This document shows positions 3,701-19,845 of a stretch of 41,631 nt of DNA, piece after piece. Position 1 is the first letter of the stretch; each line of letters begins with the position of its first letter. The stretch is from Paenirhodobacter populi (GTDB lineage Bacteria > Pseudomonadota > Alphaproteobacteria > Rhodobacterales > Rhodobacteraceae), in assembly GCF_004022215.1 (NCBI RefSeq), contig NZ_SAUZ01000032.1, positions 1-41,631 of the forward strand. The letters are read 5' to 3'. Both the position numbers and the translations under genes were made by a program. The notes beneath the pieces were generated by a model, which was not told where the DNA came from, made no database searches, and saw only the letters and a program-made list of their open reading frames with translations.

Positions 3701-4083
3701 GCGCCGCAGAAGGAGTGGATCGTCTGGATCTTCAGCCCGCCCGGCGCCTCGATCGCCTGCGCGAACAGCCGCCGCGCCTGCGCAAGCCGGTCGGCGGTGA
3801 CCTCGCCTTCCTCGCCCAGCTTGAGCAATTCGCGGCGCAGGCTGGCATCGTCCAGCATCGCCCATTCGCCCAGACGTTTCAGCAGACGGTTCTGCATCTC
3901 GCTCGCCGCAGCCTTGGTGTAGGTCAGGCAGAGCACCCGTTGCGGTTCCGTCCCGTTCAGCAGCAGCCGCGCCACGCGGTCGGTCAGCACCTTGGTCTTG
4001 CCCGAGCCCGCATTGGCCGAAAGCCAGGTCGATTGCCCGGGGCTGGCGGCGCGGATCTGCCGTTCGGTTGCCAGATCGGTCAT
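715..4083 (-). CDS. addA: Double-strand break repair helicase-nuclease AddA (alphaproteobacterial type)
   Basis: AddA (1122 aa) is the UvrD-like helicase and nuclease subunit of AddAB, which resects double-strand breaks for RecA loading. Visible motifs, in order, are Walker A NAGSGKT near residues 19-25, Walker B LVDEAQDTSPGQW, QSIYSFQGADL, MTVHGSKGLESP (motif V region) and LLYVALTRAEKW (motif VI). The C-terminal nuclease signature is GTIDLL...VLDYKS followed by a QLAAYRAAL motif. The start at 4083 gives MTDLATERQ and a 4-bp ATGA overlap with the addB stop, so translational coupling is likely. Frames open further upstream are only addB read in another phase. The gene is full length, with no disruption seen. 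Confidence 0.95.
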   Translation of the reverse strand: MTDLATERQIRAASPGQSTWLSANAGSGKTKVLTDRVARLLLNGTEPQRVLCLTYTKAAASEMQNRLLKRLGEWAMLDDASLRRELLKLGEEGEVTADRLAQARRLFAQAIEAPGGLKIQTIHSFCGALLRRFPLEAGVPHGFAELDDRSAAELRSDILEDIASGPDRGVLDDLVMCYAGEDLTALIGGITRHADAFVPPPGRDDVLAALGLPPGFTRDGLLPMAFDGGEKSLFDSVIPVLKAQSATMKTLAATLSCVNLTAPARTDLELLYDALLKKDATAKTASIPTKVAAREMGEDLVEDLHAFMERIAAVRAAESALVVAERSLVLARFAGVFLPRYRARKAAAGWLDFDDLIERAGALLSSPSVAQWVLFRLDGGIDHILVDEAQDTSPGQWRVIERLADEFTAGEGARDEPRTIFVVGDRKQSIYSFQGADLRRYEAMRAHFAQKFAVIGRPLQDAELQHSFRSSVAVLRLVDLSFSAGGSVGLGGVPEHLAFFGAMPGRVDLWPAVAPADTDHEDDWEDPVDQPGASDAHVVLARTIAAEIRALIDAGTRILDGNDPRPVHEGDFLILVQRRSVLFQEIIRACKAAGLAVAGADRLKLGAELAVRDITSVLAFLATPEDDLALAEALRSPIFGWTEGQLYDLAQPRKGYLWQALRASGRVDTLEIVQDLLDHTDFLRPYDLIERLLNRHGGRDRLIARLGAEAEDGIDELIAQALAYEATEIPSLTGFLGWLGADEIEVKRQLENEGRTIRVMTVHGSKGLESPIVILPDTAKPRAPRSGELYPADNGAVLWRGGTPVAPPALQALQEAEKTRMAEERMRLLYVALTRAEKWLIVAAAGEVGAGEESWYSLVAEGMERAGFTEVAACSGAAQALGPVRRVAYGDWPDPAQPGAPGVATAPPAPLPDWTRTRAAEPLRPPAPLSPSDLGGAKALPGETEFNDDEASKRRGRQLHLLLEHLPLATPEMWEGIAADLLGSGPDRAEPDEIAAILPVAARVVEVVRQAGFLGPDTLAEVEITADPPELGGQRLHGTIDLLRVTEDRVSVLDYKSNAVVPGTADQVPAGLVRQLAAYRAALRQIYPGRAVDCALVWTATGTITTLPDAQMDAALRTMPVP

Positions 4084-7025
4084 TCGGTCACCTCGCCGCC
4101 GGGGGTATCGGGCAGGTCGCTCATCTCCCATTCGCCAAAGCGGGACAGATGGTCGTAATCGCTGCGGTCGCGCACCGATTGCAGCGCGCGGCGCGCGGTA
4201 TAGCCGGTGCGCGGGTCCAGATAGCGCGCGATCAGCCGCTCGAACTTGGCCCATGTCACGTCGATATCGGCCTGATCCATCGGCAGGTCGCGGGTCTCGC
4301 CCTCGCCACCCAGCCGGATATAGGTCATCGCCCCCACCCGGCGCGGGCCGATCCGGTCGAAGGCGCCCTTGCCGATCATCGCGGCCTCCAGCAACAGCTG
4401 TTTGTCGAAATGCAGCACCTCGGCATCGGTGGGGGGCTTGCCGGATTTGTAGTCGTAGAGATGCGCCGAACCGTCGGGCAGGATGTCGATCCGGTCGGGC
4501 TTGGCCGAAAGCGTGAAGGCCGAGGCGGTCAGGGCCACCTTCCCCTGCTGTTCGATCACCACCGGGATGCCGGCGGCAAGGCGCGCGGCCTCGTCGGCGA
4601 CGAAACGCGCGGCGATGCGGCGGATGCGGGCATACCAGATCGCCTGCGCGCTCGGCCATTGAATCCGGGCATCCAGAATGCGGCGCGCGATGGCCAGCAG
4701 GCGGGCCTCGGCCTCAGGCAGGGTTTCGGCGGCGGGGCGGTCGCGCAGGAAGGTCTCGACGATCTCGTGCAGCACCTCGCCGCGCAGGCGCGGATCGGGT
4801 TCGGGGCGCAGCGGGTCGAGCGGACGCAGCCGCAGGATCCGCCGGGCGTAGACCGCATAGGGATCGCGGATCAGGGTGCGGATCGTCGTCACCGGCAATT
4901 CGCGCGGCCGCGCCTGTGCCGGGGGCCGGGGCGAGGGGCGGCCCTCGGGCGGCACCCGGTTGCGCGGCTGTTCCAGCGCGATCGCCATATCCACCCAAGC
5001 CTTGCCGCGCGCCCGCATGTCGGCCAGAGCCTGTGGCCCGTCGCCCTCCTTCAGACCGCCCAGCAGGTTCACCAGCCGGTTCAGCCAGCGCGAGGGCACG
5101 GTTTCCGCCCCCTCGGCCCGCTGTGAACGCGACAGCACCACCTGCGCCGCCCCCGCCGCCTGCTGGAAGTCATGCGCCGACAGGCCGATCTGCCGTTCCG
5201 GCAGCAACAGCCCGGCATCCAGCCGCATCCGCCGGCTGAGCCACGGATCGGGGGCCGGGGCCTCGGGCCAGCTTCCCTCGTTCAGCCCGGCAAGCAGCAC
5301 CAGATCGGCGGTCTGCACCCGCGCCTCCAGCGTGCCGAGGATCAGGATATCGGGATGCACCGCCTGCGCCTGCCGCACCTGCACCGCGCCGAACAGCGTG
5401 TCCAGCAGATCGGCGTAATCGGCGGGGCCGTATTGGCCGCCGTGATCCGCCTCGGCGGACAGGTCGTCCATGATCTGGCGGCAGGCCACCCCGGCCTCCT
5501 GCTGCCAGAGCCCGCTGGCACCGATGCTGCCGCCCGGGCCGGAAACCAGCCGCGCCACGAGGTCGAGATGCGTCGCGATGCAATCGGGCAGGGGCGCGGT
5601 TGCGGCCAGCGGGAACCGTTCCAGCAGATCCGCCACCCAGTCGGACCAGAGGCGGCGCGGCTCCTCCCCCTTCGTCCATTTCGGATCGCTCAGCGCGGCG
5701 CGGTCGGGGAAGGCCGGGCCATTGCGGCGCAGGTGCAGCTCCAGCTCGCGGCTGAAGCGCAGATGGTCGCCGCGCATCCCGCAGCCGGTCGCCGTCAGCG
5801 GCTGTTTCAGCAAGATCAGCAGCGGCTCGATCATCAGCCGCTGGCCGCGCAGCTTTGCCACATGCCGCAACAGACGCCCCGGCGCCGACAGCTGTAACGG
5901 CGCGCCCGCGCTGTCGTCGGGCAGGATGCCCCAGCGGTCGAGCGCCGCCGACACCCGCCGCGTCAGCATCCGGCTCGGCGTGATGAGCGCGGCCTTGCGC
6001 CCGTTTTCCGCGGCCTCGCGCAGGATCAGGGCCAGCGACAGCGCCTCGCGCCGTTCGTCGGGCGCCTCGATCAGGGTCAGGTCCGCGCAGGTGTCGGGCA
6101 GGCCGCGCAGCACGCGCCCCTCGGTCATCCATTGGTCGGTGACGGGGGCGGGGCGCAGAGCCAGCGACATCAGACCGTTGCGGGCGGGCGCGGGCGGCGC
6201 GGTATCGGTCCAGCAGCCGACCCGATCCGGCGCGGTGCCGAGTTTTCGCAGCAGGGTGCGGTAGCGGTATTGGGGATGATCCTCGATCGGCATGCGCCCG
6301 GCATCCAGCGCCTCCCACGCGAAATCCGGCATGTCGAAATCGAAACCGGGCAGGACGATCATCCCGTTCGGCAGCGCCGCCACCGCCCGCATGAAGGCCG
6401 CCGTGGTGCCGCGCGATCCGGTCGATCCGGCGATGACGATGCGGTCGTTCGTGGGCGCGATGGCCCAGTCCTCGGCCAGTCCCTCGACGATGCGGCGCAG
6501 GCGGCCGACGGCATCGGGTTCCGCCTCATCGGTGAAATAGCCCGCGACGATGCGGATGAAGTTCAGGCTCGCCTGCCAGTGGACGGCATGGCTGTCCTGA
6601 ATGTCGAGCGATTCCAGCGCGGCGGGGGGCACGCCTTCGTCCTGCATCTCGGCCAGCAGATCGGCGAGGCTGTCGGCCAGACGAAAGACCCCGGCGCCCG
6701 GCTCGAACTGCGGGAGCTTCGCCACCAGCCCGGCGACAAGACGCGCGAGTTCCAGCCGCCGCCTGAGCGCGGGCACCGCAGCGGGCACGCCGGGCCGGGG
6801 CAGCCGCGCAAGGTCCGCGATCAGCCCCAGACGCGGCAAGAACCGCGCGCCATGACGGTCGAATTCCTCGCGCACGCGGCGCTGCATCCGGCCGGAGTTG
6901 AGGTAGAGCCGCAGCCGCGCCATCGCCTCGGGCGGTTCATGCTCCATGCGCGTGATCAGCCCGGCGACCAGCTCGCGCGGGAAATCGACGCCGATCGGCA
7001 GGGCGAAGACGGGGCCTTCAGACAT
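4080..7025 (-). CDS. addB: Double-strand break repair protein AddB (alphaproteobacterial type)
   Basis: AddB (981 aa) is the partner subunit of AddA, an inactivated helicase fold with a C-terminal PD-(D/E)XK nuclease. The nuclease is visible as KPDRIDILPDG...LYDYKSGKPP followed by a KQLLLEAAM helix, near residues 880-925. The alphaproteobacterial signature IVIAGSTGSRGTTAAFMRA...GMIVLPGFD is near residues 195-230. No cysteines flank the nuclease domain, so the iron-sulfur cluster ligands of Bacillus AddB appear absent; I recall this as usual for the alphaproteobacterial type. The start overlaps the end of murU by 8 bp and the stop overlaps addA by 4 bp. Confidence 0.93.
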   Translation of the reverse strand: MSEGPVFALPIGVDFPRELVAGLITRMEHEPPEAMARLRLYLNSGRMQRRVREEFDRHGARFLPRLGLIADLARLPRPGVPAAVPALRRRLELARLVAGLVAKLPQFEPGAGVFRLADSLADLLAEMQDEGVPPAALESLDIQDSHAVHWQASLNFIRIVAGYFTDEAEPDAVGRLRRIVEGLAEDWAIAPTNDRIVIAGSTGSRGTTAAFMRAVAALPNGMIVLPGFDFDMPDFAWEALDAGRMPIEDHPQYRYRTLLRKLGTAPDRVGCWTDTAPPAPARNGLMSLALRPAPVTDQWMTEGRVLRGLPDTCADLTLIEAPDERREALSLALILREAAENGRKAALITPSRMLTRRVSAALDRWGILPDDSAGAPLQLSAPGRLLRHVAKLRGQRLMIEPLLILLKQPLTATGCGMRGDHLRFSRELELHLRRNGPAFPDRAALSDPKWTKGEEPRRLWSDWVADLLERFPLAATAPLPDCIATHLDLVARLVSGPGGSIGASGLWQQEAGVACRQIMDDLSAEADHGGQYGPADYADLLDTLFGAVQVRQAQAVHPDILILGTLEARVQTADLVLLAGLNEGSWPEAPAPDPWLSRRMRLDAGLLLPERQIGLSAHDFQQAAGAAQVVLSRSQRAEGAETVPSRWLNRLVNLLGGLKEGDGPQALADMRARGKAWVDMAIALEQPRNRVPPEGRPSPRPPAQARPRELPVTTIRTLIRDPYAVYARRILRLRPLDPLRPEPDPRLRGEVLHEIVETFLRDRPAAETLPEAEARLLAIARRILDARIQWPSAQAIWYARIRRIAARFVADEAARLAAGIPVVIEQQGKVALTASAFTLSAKPDRIDILPDGSAHLYDYKSGKPPTDAEVLHFDKQLLLEAAMIGKGAFDRIGPRRVGAMTYIRLGGEGETRDLPMDQADIDVTWAKFERLIARYLDPRTGYTARRALQSVRDRSDYDHLSRFGEWEMSDLPDTPGGEVTE

Positions 7026-15149: not shown

Positions 15150-15899
15150 ATGACCATATCCCAGAATTCTGCCTACCGGATCATCAGCGAGGGGCGCGCG
15201 TCACGATGGCTGGTCACGGTGGACCATGCGACGAACCGGGTACCCGACTGGATTTCCGGCGGAAATCTGGGGATTTCGGCCCCCGACATGCAGCGCCACA
15301 TCGCCTTCGACCCCGGCGCGCTTGGCGTGGGCACGGCGCTGGCGGAACGGCTGGACGCGCCGCTGATCCACACGGATTTCTCCCGCCTCGTGATCGACCC
15401 GAACCGGGGCGAGGATGACCCGACGCTGGTGATGCAGCTTTACGACGGGACGATCATCCCCGCGAACCGCAGAATCACCGAAGCGGATATCGGGGAACGG
15501 CTGGACCGCCTCCACCGTCCCTATCACCTCGCGCTGGAGGATCTGGCCGCCAGACGCCCGGACGTGGTGATCTGCGCGATCCATTCCTTTACCCGGCAGT
15601 TGCGCCATTGCGCGCCCCGACCGTGGGAAGTGGGAATCCTCTATTCGCCCAAGGACACCCGGCTGGCGGTGCCGCTGATCGCGGCGCTGACGGCGACGGG
15701 CCTGACGGTCGGCGACAACGAGCCCTACGCCGGGCATCTGGACGGCGATTCGATCGACCGACACGCGCTGGCCTCCGGCCGCCCGAACGTGCTGATCGAG
15801 GTGCGCAACGACCTCATCGCCGATGCCGCGGGGCAGCGGGAATGGGGTGAGCGGCTGGCGCCGGTGTTGCAGATGGTGCTGAGGAACAGCGGGCTGTGA
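15150..15899 (+). CDS. N-formylglutamate amidohydrolase family protein
   Basis: This 249-residue protein belongs to the N-formylglutamate amidohydrolase (HutG-type, zinc-dependent) family. The visible signatures are WLVTVDHATNRVPDW near residues 20-34, SRLVIDPNRGEDDPTLV in the middle, the AIHSFTRQL histidine motif and a C-terminal VLIEVRNDLI segment. Classical members release glutamate from N-formylglutamate at the end of histidine breakdown. No other hut genes are present, so the true substrate is open. The dgcA/dgcN genes nearby would make N-acetyl-L-glutamate, a related N-acyl glutamate, but that link is only inference. The start has no strong Shine-Dalgarno sequence. Confidence 0.85.
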   Translation: MTISQNSAYRIISEGRASRWLVTVDHATNRVPDWISGGNLGISAPDMQRHIAFDPGALGVGTALAERLDAPLIHTDFSRLVIDPNRGEDDPTLVMQLYDGTIIPANRRITEADIGERLDRLHRPYHLALEDLAARRPDVVICAIHSFTRQLRHCAPRPWEVGILYSPKDTRLAVPLIAALTATGLTVGDNEPYAGHLDGDSIDRHALASGRPNVLIEVRNDLIADAAGQREWGERLAPVLQMVLRNSGL

Positions 15900-15915: not shown

Positions 15916-16272
15916 TCAGAACAGGCCGAAGTTGACCTGCCCCGTCGTCCCGTCCGACAGCCGGTAGAAGCCCGCGGCCTGCGACGTGTGGCGGTTGAGG
16001 AAAACCTGAATCTCCCCCTTGCGCCTGTCGGAACAGGACAGCGGCGCTTTCGCGGGTTGCGGCTCGTCATCCGCATGCAGGAAGGTCGCGTTGCAGAACC
16101 AGCCCGCCTGACTTTTCAGGGTGATGCTCACGACCTGCGATCCCGGCACCGTTTCGAGGGTGCCGGATACCGCGCCGCCATCCGACGCCCTGCCGCCGCC
16201 CTGCGTTTCATTCGTTTCGACGCATCCGCACAAGGTTGCGAGGGTCGTCAGGGCAAGGAGTCGAAGGCGCAT
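15916..16272 (-). CDS. Small predicted lipoprotein
   Basis: This 118-residue protein has a short hydrophobic signal (RLRLLALTTLATLCGC) ending in a lipobox-like LCGC, so Cys17 would be lipidated. The mature part is polar, with two further cysteines (WFCNATF and LSCSDRR) that could form a disulfide, and it ends GTTGQVNFGLF. I recognise no domain. It converges on the amidohydrolase gene with 16 bp between stops and is separated from dat by the dat terminator, so it may be transcribed alone. Confidence 0.7.
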   Translation of the reverse strand: MRLRLLALTTLATLCGCVETNETQGGGRASDGGAVSGTLETVPGSQVVSITLKSQAGWFCNATFLHADDEPQPAKAPLSCSDRRKGEIQVFLNRHTSQAAGFYRLSDGTTGQVNFGLF

Positions 16273-16317: not shown

Positions 16318-16346
16318 GGACAGGCCCCTGTGCGCGGGGCCTGTCC
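16318..16346 (-). terminator. dat terminator
   Basis: GGACAGGCCCC and GGGGCCTGTCC form a perfect 11-bp stem with a 7-base loop, 5 bp beyond the stop of the transaminase gene and followed by TCTCTTTG on the minus strand. It closes the dgcN-dgcA-dat transcript. Confidence 0.85.
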
Positions 16347-16351
16347 GGAAC

Positions 16352-17212
16352 TCAGATCGAGTGTTTGCGCGCTTCGTCGATATAGATCTCGCGCAGGCGC
16401 CGTGCCACCGGGCCGGGGGTGCCGTCGCCAAGCGTGGCGCCGTCGACCTCGACGATCGGCATGACGAAGGACGAGGCCGAGGTGTAGAAGGCCTCATCCG
16501 CGCCCTGCGCGTCCTCGATGGTGAAGGGGCGTTCCTCGACCTTCATCTGCCGTTCCGCAAGGATCTTCAGCAGCGAGGCGCGGGTGATCCCGTGCAGGAT
16601 GTCGTTCGACAGCGGCCGGGTGATGATCGTGTCGCCCTTGACGATATAGCAGTTGTTCGACGATCCCTCGGTCACGAAGCCATCCTCGACGAACCAGGCG
16701 TCGTCCTTGCCGGCCTGCTCGGCAGTCATCTTGGCGATCGAGGCCCAGAGGAGCTGCACCGTCTTGATGTCGCGCCGGTGCCAGCGCAGGTCGGGAACGG
16801 AAATCACCTTCACGCCCTTGGTCACCTTCGGACCGTCGAGCATGTCGGGATGTTCCTGCGTATACAGCACCACCGTCGGCGGCGTGCCGGCGGGCGGGAA
16901 ATGGAAATCCCGGTCGCCCGCATTGCCGCGCGAAACTTGCAGATAGACCCCGCCAAGCGTCAGCCCGTTCAGTTCCAGCAGCTTGCGGTGGATCGCCAGC
17001 CATTCGTCGCGGCTGATGTCGCAGGTGATCTGCAATTCCCGCAGCGACCGTTCCAGACGGGTCATGTGGCCTTCGAAATCGGTCAGCTTGCCGTCAAGGA
17101 CGCAGGTCACCTCATAAACGGCATCGCCCATCACGAAACCCCGGTCAAAGATCGAGACCTGCGCCTCTTCCTCGGGGATATAGTCACCATTCAGATAAAC
17201 GGTGCGGCTCAT
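16352..17212 (-). CDS. dat: D-amino-acid transaminase (fold-type IV PLP enzyme)
   Basis: This 286-residue enzyme is expected to move amino groups from D-amino acids to 2-oxoglutarate, giving D-glutamate. It resembles Bacillus D-amino-acid transaminase throughout: VYLNGDYIPEEEAQVSIFDRG at the start, the PLP lysine in RRDIKTVQLL (Lys150), TEGSSNN (Glu182), ITRPLSNDILHGITR and FYTSASSFVMPIVEVDG. The usual R-x-H-x-F-P carboxylate-binding segment reads R101-D-F-H-F-P, so the histidine position appears changed. Branched-chain transaminase (ilvE) is the main alternative, but the DIK context and TEGSSNN favour a D-enzyme. The start at 17212 has AAGGAG upstream that lies against the dgcA stop, 11 bp away, so it is in one operon with dgcA. 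Confidence 0.85.
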   Translation of the reverse strand: MSRTVYLNGDYIPEEEAQVSIFDRGFVMGDAVYEVTCVLDGKLTDFEGHMTRLERSLRELQITCDISRDEWLAIHRKLLELNGLTLGGVYLQVSRGNAGDRDFHFPPAGTPPTVVLYTQEHPDMLDGPKVTKGVKVISVPDLRWHRRDIKTVQLLWASIAKMTAEQAGKDDAWFVEDGFVTEGSSNNCYIVKGDTIITRPLSNDILHGITRASLLKILAERQMKVEERPFTIEDAQGADEAFYTSASSFVMPIVEVDGATLGDGTPGPVARRLREIYIDEARKHSI

Positions 17213-17223
17213 CTTCGTCTCCT

Positions 17224-18186
17224 TCAGCCCCACAGGCCCGGCTCGGGCGGGAATACCTTGCCGCCGTCGTAATGCAGCGGCGCATCGCGGTCTTCTGCCA
17301 GAAGCAGCGGTCCGTCAAGGTCCACCACCTCGGCGCCCTGCGCGACCAGAACCGCGGGCGCCATCGCCAGCGACGAGCCGACCATGCAGCCGACCATCAC
17401 CTGATAGCCCTGCGCGCGGGCAAGGTTGCGCAGCTCCAGCGCCTCGGTCAGACCGCCGGTCTTGTCGAGCTTGATGTTGATCACGTCATACTTGCCCTTG
17501 AGGTGATCGAGGCTCTTGCGGTCGTGGCAGCTTTCGTCGGCGCAGACCGGCACGAGGCGGTCGAGCCCGATCAGATCCTCGTCCCCGGCGGCGGGCAGCG
17601 GCTGTTCTACCAGCGCCACGCCAAGCCGCACCAGATGCGGCGCGAGGTCGAGGTAGCTTTCGATCGTCCAGCCCTCGTTCGCATCGACGATGATCTTGGC
17701 ATCCGGCGCGCCACGGCGGACGGCCTCGAGCCGGGGCATGTCGTCGGGCGTGCCCAGCTTGATCTTCAAGAGCGGCCGATGCGCGTTTTCCGCGGCCTTG
17801 CGCTGCATGTTTTCCGGCGTGTCCAGCGACAGCGTATAGGCCGTGGTCACCGGCACCGGCGCGGGCAGGCCCGCCAGATCCCAGACCCGCTTGCCCGCGG
17901 CCTTCGCCTCAAGGTCCCACAGGGCGCAATCGACGGCGTTGCGCGCCGCGCCGGCGGGCAGGGCGTGCTGCAATTCGGCGCGGGTGATGTCGGCGGGCAG
18001 GCCGTTGATCTGGGCCGTCACGCTTTCGAGGCTTTCCTCATACCGCGCATAGGGCACGCATTCGCCCCAGCCCAGAATGCCGTCGCGCTCCACCCGGACG
18101 GTCAGCACCTTCGCCTCGGTCCGGCTGCCGCGCGAAATGGTGAAGACTTCGGCCAGCCGGAAAACGTCTGCCGTTACGGTGATCAT
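17224..18186 (-). CDS. dgcA: DgcA-type N-acetyl-D-glutamate racemase (dipeptide-epimerase family)
   Basis: This 320-residue enolase-superfamily enzyme is of the L-Ala-D/L-Glu epimerase type. The acid/base lysine pair KIK is at 141-143, the metal ligands are Asp168 (IIVDAN), Glu194 (LVEQPL) and Asp217 (CADES), and the second catalytic lysine lies in NIKLDKTGG. By sequence alone it could be a muropeptide-derived dipeptide epimerase. Directly behind a DUF1611 DgcN-type gene, the better call is DgcA, which racemises N-acetyl-D-glutamate to N-acetyl-L-glutamate. The start at 18186 is supported by AGGAGGAAGCGA. dat follows after 11 bp. Confidence 0.82.
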   Translation of the reverse strand: MITVTADVFRLAEVFTISRGSRTEAKVLTVRVERDGILGWGECVPYARYEESLESVTAQINGLPADITRAELQHALPAGAARNAVDCALWDLEAKAAGKRVWDLAGLPAPVPVTTAYTLSLDTPENMQRKAAENAHRPLLKIKLGTPDDMPRLEAVRRGAPDAKIIVDANEGWTIESYLDLAPHLVRLGVALVEQPLPAAGDEDLIGLDRLVPVCADESCHDRKSLDHLKGKYDVINIKLDKTGGLTEALELRNLARAQGYQVMVGCMVGSSLAMAPAVLVAQGAEVVDLDGPLLLAEDRDAPLHYDGGKVFPPEPGLWG

Positions 18187-18203
18187 TCGCTTCCTCCTGA
18201 TGA

Positions 18204-18230
18204 CGCCCCGCCCGGGGACCCGGACGGGCG
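18204..18230 (-). other. Hairpin between dgcN and dgcA
   Basis: CGCCC(C)GCCCGGG can fold onto CCCGGACGGGCG with one bulge and a GA-centred turn. It occupies most of the 52-bp gap between dgcN and the dgcA ribosome binding site. No T-tract follows, so a role in partial termination, mRNA processing or stability is more likely than full termination. Confidence 0.35.
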
Positions 18231-18238
18231 CAACAGTG

Positions 18239-19246
18239 TCAAATCGCGTCGAGCGCGTCCACCAGCTTTGCCGCACCGAAGCGGAAGGGATCGGTGGCGG
18301 GCAGGGACAGGTCGGCCTCGACCTGCGCCAGATAGGCCTTGGCCTCATCCTCGGACATGTGCTGGGTGTTGACCGAGACGCCGACGACCTTGCAGGCCGG
18401 ATTGGCCACCTGCGCCAGACGCAGCGCGACATCGCGCAGATCGGCAAGCGAAGGCAGCTTGTAGCCCGGCAGGCCGCGCATATGCGGCCGGGTCGGTTCG
18501 TGGCACAGAACCAGCGCATCCGGCTGCCCGCCATGCACCAGCGCCAGCGTCACCCCGGAATAGGAAACGTGGAACAGGCTGCCCTGCCCCTCGATCAGAT
18601 CCCAGTGGTCGGCATCATTGTCGGGCGTCAGCCATTCGATCGAGCCCGCCATGAAATCGGCGATCACCGCGTCGAGCGGCACGCCGTTGCCGGTGATCAG
18701 GATGCCGGTCTGGCCGGTGGCGCGGAAGGTCGCCTTCTGGCCACGGGCGCGGAGTTCCTTCTCCATGCAGAGCGCGGTATACATCTTGCCCACCGAACAA
18801 TCCGTGCCGACGGCGAGCATCCGCTTGCCCTGCCGCTTCACGCCATTGGCGATCGGATACTGGACCGAGGGCACCCGCACGTCATGCAGGCTGCGCCCGT
18901 GTTCGCGGGCGATGGCGACCAGTTCCGGTTCGTCGCGCAGCAGGTTGTGCAGGCCGGAAGCGATGTCGAACCCCTGTTCCAGCGCCGTCACCAGCACCTC
19001 TTTCCACGCGGGCGAAATGATGCCGCCGCGATTCGCCACGCCGATCACCAGCGTCTTGCAGCCCGCCGCCTTCGCCGCCGGCAGGTCCAGATCCGGCAGG
19101 CCCATGTCGGCCTTGCACCCCTCCATCCGATACTGGCCGACGGCATATTCCGGTCGCCAGTCCTTGATTCCCTGCGCGACCTTCGCCGCGAGCTGGTCGG
19201 GCGCATCACCAAGAAACAGCAGATAGGGGGTTTCGATCAACGACAT
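18239..19246 (-). CDS. dgcN: DgcN-type D-glutamate N-acetyltransferase (DUF1611 family)
   Basis: This 335-residue protein is of the DUF1611 family. An N-terminal Rossmann-like region (LVIGVANRGGIISPAW) is followed by a P-loop-like AVGTDCSVGKMYTAL (about 146-160), ATGQTGILITGNGVPLDAV, DLIEGQGSLFH and VLCHEPTRPHMRG. Members paired with a dipeptide-epimerase-type partner have been described as DgcN, which acetylates D-glutamate with acetyl-CoA as the first step of D-glutamate catabolism. The start at MSLIETPYLL (19246) is the family N-terminus, and the longer upstream frame is non-coding. It is the first gene of the dgcN-dgcA-dat unit. No DgcR-like regulator is adjacent. Confidence 0.82.
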   Translation of the reverse strand: MSLIETPYLLFLGDAPDQLAAKVAQGIKDWRPEYAVGQYRMEGCKADMGLPDLDLPAAKAAGCKTLVIGVANRGGIISPAWKEVLVTALEQGFDIASGLHNLLRDEPELVAIAREHGRSLHDVRVPSVQYPIANGVKRQGKRMLAVGTDCSVGKMYTALCMEKELRARGQKATFRATGQTGILITGNGVPLDAVIADFMAGSIEWLTPDNDADHWDLIEGQGSLFHVSYSGVTLALVHGGQPDALVLCHEPTRPHMRGLPGYKLPSLADLRDVALRLAQVANPACKVVGVSVNTQHMSEDEAKAYLAQVEADLSLPATDPFRFGAAKLVDALDAI

Positions 19247-19699: not shown

Positions 19700-19845
19700 G
19701 AAAAATGACTAAGGATTAGGCTGAATGTAAACACATTCAGAATCGAATCAGAATAGGATCCCGGAGCGGCGAGGAGGGGAGGCCACGCCAGCATGAGGGA
19801 ACCAGGGACGCCCCGGCCACAGGTCCGGGGCGTTTCCTTTTCTGT
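19700..19845 (+). ncRNA. Candidate small RNA or accA leader ending in an intrinsic terminator
   Basis: A plus-strand transcript ending at 19845 would contain the stem 19721-19740 (CTGAATGT and ACATTCAG around AAAC), a purine-rich GAGGAGGGGAGG segment near 19771-19784, and a strong terminator hairpin. No protein gene reads into this terminator on the plus strand. That layout is typical of a trans-acting small RNA, or of an attenuated leader for accA, which begins 150 bp downstream. TTGTCA at 19688-19693 with TAAGGA near 19710 is a possible promoter. The boundaries are approximate. Confidence 0.3.
19808..19845 (+). terminator. Orphan plus-strand terminator
   Basis: ACGCCCCGG (19808-19816) pairs with CCGGGGCGT (19825-19833), followed by TTTCCTTTTCTGTTT. 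Stem strength and T-rich tail are both good. There is no coding gene upstream on this strand between dgcN and here. Confidence 0.7.

Follow-up and report, generated by a model that had tools for sequence, protein, structure and literature searches.

In the sea, D-amino acids form a large reservoir of organic nitrogen that is used slowly, and Rhodobacteraceae count among its important consumers. Among described systems, the DgcN-DgcA pathway for D-glutamate was reportedly presented by Yu et al. 2023 in ISME J for Pseudoalteromonas sp. CF6-2, where the gene cluster is said to include a regulator, DgcR. Here, we analysed a stretch of 41,631 nucleotides from Paenirhodobacter populi (contig NZ_SAUZ01000032.1, called the window below; it is contig C25 of a searched genome of 4.78 Mb in 91 contigs), in which dgcN, dgcA and a gene for a D-amino-acid transaminase, dat, follow one another on the minus strand (Table 1). 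Our evidence leans towards an operon for D-amino-acid salvage that would most likely serve D-Ala and D-Glu of the cell wall, and in which DgcA would also have a substrate that does not depend on DgcN. In the sections available, PMC12363236 reports that 32 clades at class level contain dgcN, and its references include a paper on a D-Ala aminotransferase of strain CF6-2 (Yu et al. 2022), and PMC10845958 discusses the DgcN-DgcA pathway in Shewanella. Likewise in part, PMC11747546 lists all three enzymes in strain LCG007 of the Rhodobacteraceae, which grows on D-Phe, D-Lys, D-Glu, D-Ser and D-Ala, and PMC6965332 describes a D-amino-acid transaminase of another marine isolate that is active on seven D-amino acids. 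Among the literature matches listed, whose coverage is incomplete, we found no description of a dgcN-dgcA-dat operon.

All three proteins fall into recognizable families. In an NCBIfam scan, DgcN scored 561.5 bits with the curated equivalog NF041892 (cut-off 480). It carries the DUF1611 domains PF07755 and PF17396, is the sole PF07755 match found in its own genome and has a solved relative in 7XRJ (576 bits across 333 residues); among its best named relatives, at 85-87% identity, are Paenirhodobacter enshiensis, Sinirhodobacter hankyongi, Rhodobacter capsulatus and several metagenome-assembled genomes. It is a member of the D-glutamate N-acetyltransferase family, with that activity predicted. 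DgcA scored 510.7 bits with the curated equivalog NF042940 (cut-off 400) and fell below the cut-off of PRK15129, the L-Ala-D/L-Glu epimerase equivalog (314.1 against 343 bits); its closest solved chain is 4GFI, and the Escherichia coli epimerase 1JPD comes second with 275.5 bits. The KxK motif of the epimerase, the second lysine, the metal-ligand acids and the C-terminal DxD motif, which we take to be catalytic, are all present. DgcA belongs to the N-acetyl-D-Glu racemase/L-Ala-D/L-Glu epimerase line of the enolase superfamily, again with a predicted activity, and the other matches to this superfamily in the same genome are more distant (at best 114.5 bits with the DgcA model). Dat exceeded the cut-off of the subfamily model NF005209/PRK06680 (359.6 against 320 bits) and remained below that of the equivalog TIGR01121, D_amino_aminoT (228.3 against 277.45 bits); its closest solved chains are the D-alanine/D-amino-acid aminotransferases 9PXS and 1DAA. 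It is a member of the PRK06680 subfamily of D-amino-acid transaminases, its substrates being predicted. Distant DUF1611 paralogues, scoring about 165-230 bits with the DgcN model, occur in a number of genomes of the family (for example at G075:C4:73937-74737; G and L numbers are our handles for genomes and loci).

The first-pass annotation of this DNA had placed dgcN, dgcA and dat in this order on the minus strand, with an 11-bp gap before dat and a terminator at the end. All three open reading frames (ORFs) were recovered in place, their coordinates bear out the gap and give a further spacing of 52 bp between dgcN and dgcA, and the terminator hairpin is strong (-26.4 kcal/mol, z -5.0 against 200 shuffles). 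A consensus scan found three terminator-like sites against a shuffle mean of 3.1, that is, no excess, so it is the fold energy that supports the terminator. For dat, an in-frame GTG at 17233, overlapping dgcA, is a possible start; the ATG at 17212 was adopted because the alignments of relatives start there. With this operon-like spacing, co-transcription of the three genes as one operon is a plausible prediction.

The arrangement is widespread within the Rhodobacteraceae. In a sample of 149 genomes of the family, drawn evenly at about one per genus, a DgcN match was found in 116; 113 of these exceed the cut-off, the window genome included, and the remaining 112 loci were fetched. In 108 of the 112, dgcA adjoins dgcN on the same strand. 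A same-strand dat follows downstream in 104 of the 112, and 81 have it no more than 200 bp from dgcA. The gap between dgcA and dat measures -4 to 176 bp in 81 of the 104 loci and 35 bp or less in 63. As for the remaining fetched loci, the contig terminates right after dgcN in two (L201, L215), three have no dat within the fetched stretch, one has dat on the opposite strand, and in G062 and G005 dgcA is away from dgcN and sits with dat elsewhere, on the same strand, with gaps of about 20 and 550 bp. With so many loci having dat downstream on the same strand in a sample of roughly one genome per genus, chance does not account for the arrangement, and the gene order on which the first-pass annotation had built is kept across genera of the family. 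The seven genomes of the sample without a dat over the cut-off also have no DgcN match; they are only 73-94% complete.

Conserved position need not mean a shared pathway: dat could belong to a pyk region of the Rhodobacteraceae, upstream of which dgcN and dgcA would lie by chance. Indeed, dat is found near an FGase-family gene and pyk at four loci without DgcN and without dgcA beside dat (L229, L231, L246 and L250), and it rarely adjoins dgcN and dgcA in the loci of the class seen outside the family. However, the shared strand, the short gaps in 63 of the 104 loci and a distance between dat and the FGase-family gene that varies by kilobases all speak against this explanation, as does the joint position of dgcA and dat in G005 and G062 even though dgcN is elsewhere. 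We consider it improbable.

For the salvage operon that we favour, we infer all reactions in this organism, with their direction and substrates, as follows. With D-Ala, and perhaps with other D-amino acids, as amino donor, Dat would convert 2-oxoglutarate to D-Glu and leave a keto acid. DgcN would then acetylate D-Glu with acetyl-CoA to N-acetyl-D-Glu, which DgcA would convert by inversion to N-acetyl-L-Glu. The latter could enter arginine synthesis or return to L-Glu via an ArgE-type deacetylation: as the genome encodes ArgJ (402.8 bits, cut-off 298) and two ArgE-type genes over the cut-off (406.8 and 362.4 bits), two exits are possible. In addition, DgcA would very likely take a substrate that is independent of DgcN, for which murein L-Ala-D-Glu is the best candidate. 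The FGase-family gene was considered as a deacetylase and rejected, as it lies on the opposite strand, is found near pyk in genomes without DgcN and reaches only 25.8 bits with hutG (cut-off 278.75). A funnel leading from many D-amino acids via D-Glu to N-acetyl-L-Glu had been proposed in the first-pass annotation. It gains from the gene identities, the operon-like spacing, the family-wide order and the ArgJ/ArgE exits, and loses by the persistence of dgcA and dat without DgcN, by the dipeptide-epimerase residues kept in DgcA, by the pocket of Dat and by DadA- and MurI-type genes, all discussed below. As a hypothesis it is sound, plausible and made mostly of known parts.

Several observations count against so simple a pathway. 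To begin with the locus, a consensus scan found no sigma-70-type promoter (0 against 0.7 in shuffles), and in 23 of the 104 family loci dgcA and dat are 293-3183 bp apart. The genome also holds a DadA-type gene (694.5 bits, cut-off 383), which likely provides an oxidative route for D-Ala besides Dat, and a MurI-type gene that narrowly misses its cut-off (141.7 against 146.65 bits), whose match spans positions 1-246 of the 251 of the model in an intact ORF of 284 amino acids. Dat therefore need not be the sole source of D-Glu or the sole sink for D-amino acids. The low MurI score might even suggest that Dat is anabolic, supplying D-Glu or D-Ala for peptidoglycan while DgcN and DgcA drain the excess; in its available sections, PMC8401098 names D-amino-acid aminotransferases (DAATs) as the main enzymes of bacterial D-Glu synthesis. 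Nevertheless, the MurI-type match is nearly full length in an intact frame and dat adjoins the genes of a described catabolic pathway, and we regard an anabolic Dat as very improbable.

In the loci of the class seen outside the family, dgcN and dgcA stay together, with dat rarely beside them. In 337 sampled genomes, DgcN exceeds its cut-off in 82, DgcA in 113 and both in 81, with the two genes within 400 bp of each other in 77 of these 81; in G471, a DgcN over the cut-off adjoins a sub-threshold DgcA of 325 bits. On the other hand, 32 of the 113 genomes with DgcA have no DgcN over the cut-off (in one of them, G330, DgcN reaches 468.7 bits, just under it), and in G239 a DgcN just short of the cut-off (467.4 bits) comes with no real DgcA (best E 3.8e-8). 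Only the best-scoring loci were fetched outside the family, and G235, G296 and G332, where the stretch is missing or too short, are left out of the downstream counts. On this basis, dat follows dgcA in none of the 25 genomes showing at least 1000 bp and in one of the 11 showing about 500 bp (G404); G213 adds a further case, judged from coordinates. The coupling of dat is thus largely, not wholly, confined to the Rhodobacteraceae. Since genomes without DgcN may keep dat, and since dat rarely stands beside dgcN and dgcA elsewhere, the link is lineage-specific and not obligatory.

The carboxylate pocket of Dat raises a further difficulty. Mapped on the canonical Bacillus transaminase (bsDAAT, 1DAA), Dat retains Y31, V33, Y88, Q90, R98, K145 and E177 and shows the changes H100 to F, S181 to N, K35 to C, H86 to G and F26 to M; it thus has neither the canonical carboxylate-trap H100 nor the P-pocket lysine K35. 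F at position 100 and N at position 181 occur in all of 132 Dats of the family (104 from operon loci and 28 from genomes without DgcN; eight further rows were set aside), and four paralogues, counted apart, have F at 100 and A or C at 181. Position 100 is H in 24 and F in six of 30 Dats that represent the best matches of the class beyond the family. The change at K35 is not specific to the family, because Dats of the class also lack this lysine. The canonical DAAT motifs FxxxxYxV[IVA][KR], HxY and [RK]xH are absent from Dat, which keeps Y31, V33, Y88 and R98 within them and has F26, position 34, K35, H86 and H100 changed; they are taken from Table 1 of PMC8401098, in the part available, which gives the DAAT motif of Hohne and a motif of branched-chain aminotransferases (BCATs) with F at bsDAAT position 31. 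As parts of PMC8401098 and PMC10671532 describe DAATs of a non-canonical kind that rely on other arginines or lysines instead, the loss of H100 does not exclude D-specificity. A BCAT identity for Dat was rejected, all listed BCAT models staying under their cut-offs and position 31 being Y, and so was an (R)-amine transaminase, on cut-offs and motifs. The altered alpha-carboxylate pocket means that a broad range of D-amino acids cannot be read from the family name of Dat; the family-wide change from H to F offers a clear structure-function test.

Relatives without DgcN pose another challenge. DgcN is absent from 35 of the 149 genomes of the family: 33 have no match at all, and G035 and G136 have a distant paralogue only (G108, where DgcN is split across two contigs, was counted as DgcN-present). 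Several of these genomes are complete or nearly so, with one contig in G055, three in G104 and five in G034. dat exceeds its cut-off in 28 of the 35, and in 12 of these 28 a full-length dgcA lies directly upstream on the same strand. L238 (G077) shows a 64-residue dgcA match beside dat at about 4865-5056, apparently a decayed dgcA, and no dgcA was found in the fetched dat stretch of the other 15, the rest of those genomes not having been searched. Neither gene therefore needs DgcN. On a FastTree tree of 127 DgcA rows, with 55 of 124 inner branches open, the 12 DgcN-less proteins are scattered, requiring 10 parsimony changes, of which at least five are forced by starred branches, against 11.6 on average for shuffled labels. 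One of them, from G093, groups near the E. coli epimerase in a long-branch join and may be a different enzyme; it stands with dat in L239, at about 4004-5834, in a one-contig genome. In 79 of the 112 fetched loci, dgcN has a divergent citE-like gene no more than 800 bp upstream. In seven DgcN-less loci (six with a full-length dgcA, and L238), dgcA has this divergent gene upstream instead, again within 800 bp, which looks like loss of dgcN in place.

Putative catalytic residues of DgcA are identical in the two groups: K141, K143, D168, E194, D217, K239, D289 and D291 are invariant in 113 rows from genomes with DgcN, in the 12 rows from genomes without it and in 1JPD. The ratio of non-synonymous to synonymous change (pn/ps), taken against the nearest relative with DgcN and leaving out G093, is rough, since synonymous sites are partly saturated. 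For dgcA it is 0.335 in DgcN-less genomes and 0.247 in the others (p 0.003; 11 against 108 rows; the DgcN-less median is 0.336 over 12 rows if G093 is included), and for dat 0.273 and 0.198 (p 0.009; 11 against 104 rows). As dat is raised likewise, the rise is not specific to dgcA, and a relaxation of selection on dgcA alone after the loss of dgcN is not seen. Another acetyltransferase beside dgcA was also rejected, no GNAT-like start being seen by eye, without a family-model scan, in the upstream ORFs of 13 DgcN-less loci, seven of which have the divergent citE-like gene there. It is thus probable that DgcA and Dat act without DgcN too, perhaps on L-Ala-D-Glu of murein.

One could go further and read the locus as one for the salvage of murein peptides, in which DgcA is chiefly an L-Ala-D/L-Glu epimerase, Dat disposes of D-Ala and DgcN is a dispensable addition that deals with free D-Glu. 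The 12 scattered dgcA-dat pairs, six of them (and L238) still facing the citE-like gene, the shared active-site residues, the lack of a relaxation specific to dgcA, the 32 DgcA genomes of the class without DgcN, the second rank of 1JPD among solved chains and the distance of all other enolase-superfamily matches in the genome all speak for this. Yet DgcA passes the cut-off of its own equivalog and not that of the epimerase, the adjacency of dgcN and dgcA in 77 of 81 genomes suggests an old unit in which DgcA serves DgcN, and the operon holds no peptidase or other murein gene. Moreover, around 20 DgcN-less DgcA genes outside the family, inspected by eye without a family-model scan (seven representatives being read), no clear context and in particular no clear murein context was seen, and an acetyltransferase might lie elsewhere in DgcN-less genomes. 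We judge a locus devoted mainly to murein peptides rather unlikely. A further possibility, less likely than not, is that the functional core in Rhodobacteraceae is dgcA-dat, with a DgcA acting both as N-acetyl-D-Glu racemase and as murein dipeptide epimerase, a dgcN that is an add-on lost repeatedly in place while dgcA stays, and a Dat of a separate clade that binds the alpha-carboxylate without the histidine and is tuned to murein D-Ala and D-Glu.

We therefore retain the salvage operon with a DgcA of wider use. DgcA has kept the residues of the dipeptide-epimerase line, so that it may act on L-Ala-D-Glu, and since dgcA-dat persists where dgcN is absent, it probably has a second, DgcN-independent substrate, for which this dipeptide, derived from murein peptides, is the foremost candidate. 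Genomes with dgcA-dat and no DgcN amount to a natural experiment, and they suggest that the label 'N-acetyl-D-Glu racemase', assigned automatically through an equivalog model, does not cover the whole function of the DgcA family. If the three genes form one pathway, the presence and position of dat would help to predict the use of D-Ala as well as D-Glu.

The surroundings of the operon hold further features (Table 1). In the window, accA is the divergent neighbour of dgcN, in place of the citE-like gene. Between the two lies a conserved and structured RNA-like element of about 85 nt, which ends in a terminator-type hairpin and is a candidate small RNA or accA leader/attenuator. With a model trained on 15 copies, 60 sources yielded 30 matches at E up to 0.01; nine exceed 75 bits, of which eight (the window included) are training copies and L040 is not. 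About ten weaker matches (24-48 bits) include several just upstream of accA on its strand, and others, which lie elsewhere or on the strand opposite the element, are probably different hairpins. Rfam gave no match at gathering thresholds, sX6 reaching only 15.5 bits. Directly after the terminator, an ORF with a lipoprotein-like start has no Pfam or NCBIfam match and no tblastn match at 1e-10 among the loci listed. The FGase-family gene beyond it adjoins pyk in many relatives.

Table 1. Features of the dgcN-dgcA-dat locus and its surroundings (window positions).
Feature	Position	Strand	Remarks
dgcN	18239..19246	minus	335 aa; ATG at 19246, stop ends 18239
dgcA	17224..18186	minus	320 aa; ATG at 18186, stop ends 17224
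dgcA-dat intergenic gap	17213..17223	minus	11 bp, with AGGAG; ORF coordinates
dat	16352..17212	minus	286 aa; ATG at 17212, stop ends 16352
Intrinsic terminator, operon end	16318..16346	minus	11-bp stem, 9 GC pairs
RNA-like element (candidate)	19756..19842	plus	accA strand
ORF, lipoprotein-like start	15916..16272	minus	118 aa
FGase-family (PF05013) protein	15150..15899	plus	convergent with operon

Set beside what is known, the locus combines familiar parts. The first-pass annotation had held that the pair was described for D-glutamate alone; the pair and, for LCG007, all three enzymes are already in print, and a CF6-2 paper bears D-Ala aminotransferase in its title. That title, as far as a title goes, indicates a transaminase for D-Ala metabolism in a strain with DgcN and DgcA, so that the chemical funnel is already implicit there. 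PMC11747546, in the sections available, does not present the enzymes of LCG007 as one operon or pathway. The newer points are the persistence of dgcA-dat independently of DgcN and the altered pocket of Dat. With the canonical Bacillus transaminase, Dat has fold type IV and the conserved Y31, V33, Y88, R98, K145 and E177 in common, and it differs by F, N, C, G and M at H100, S181, K35, H86 and F26. DgcA shares the lysines, acid residues and DxD motif of the E. coli epimerase 1JPD, yet it stays under the NCBIfam epimerase cut-off and differs at positions nearly invariant across DgcA rows, such as 138, 145, 149, 273, 277 and 300. As in CF6-2, dgcN and dgcA are adjacent genes of the same curated equivalog families; here, in contrast, no DgcR-like regulator was seen in the operon, and dgcA is followed, after 11 bp, by the gene for a D-amino-acid transaminase.

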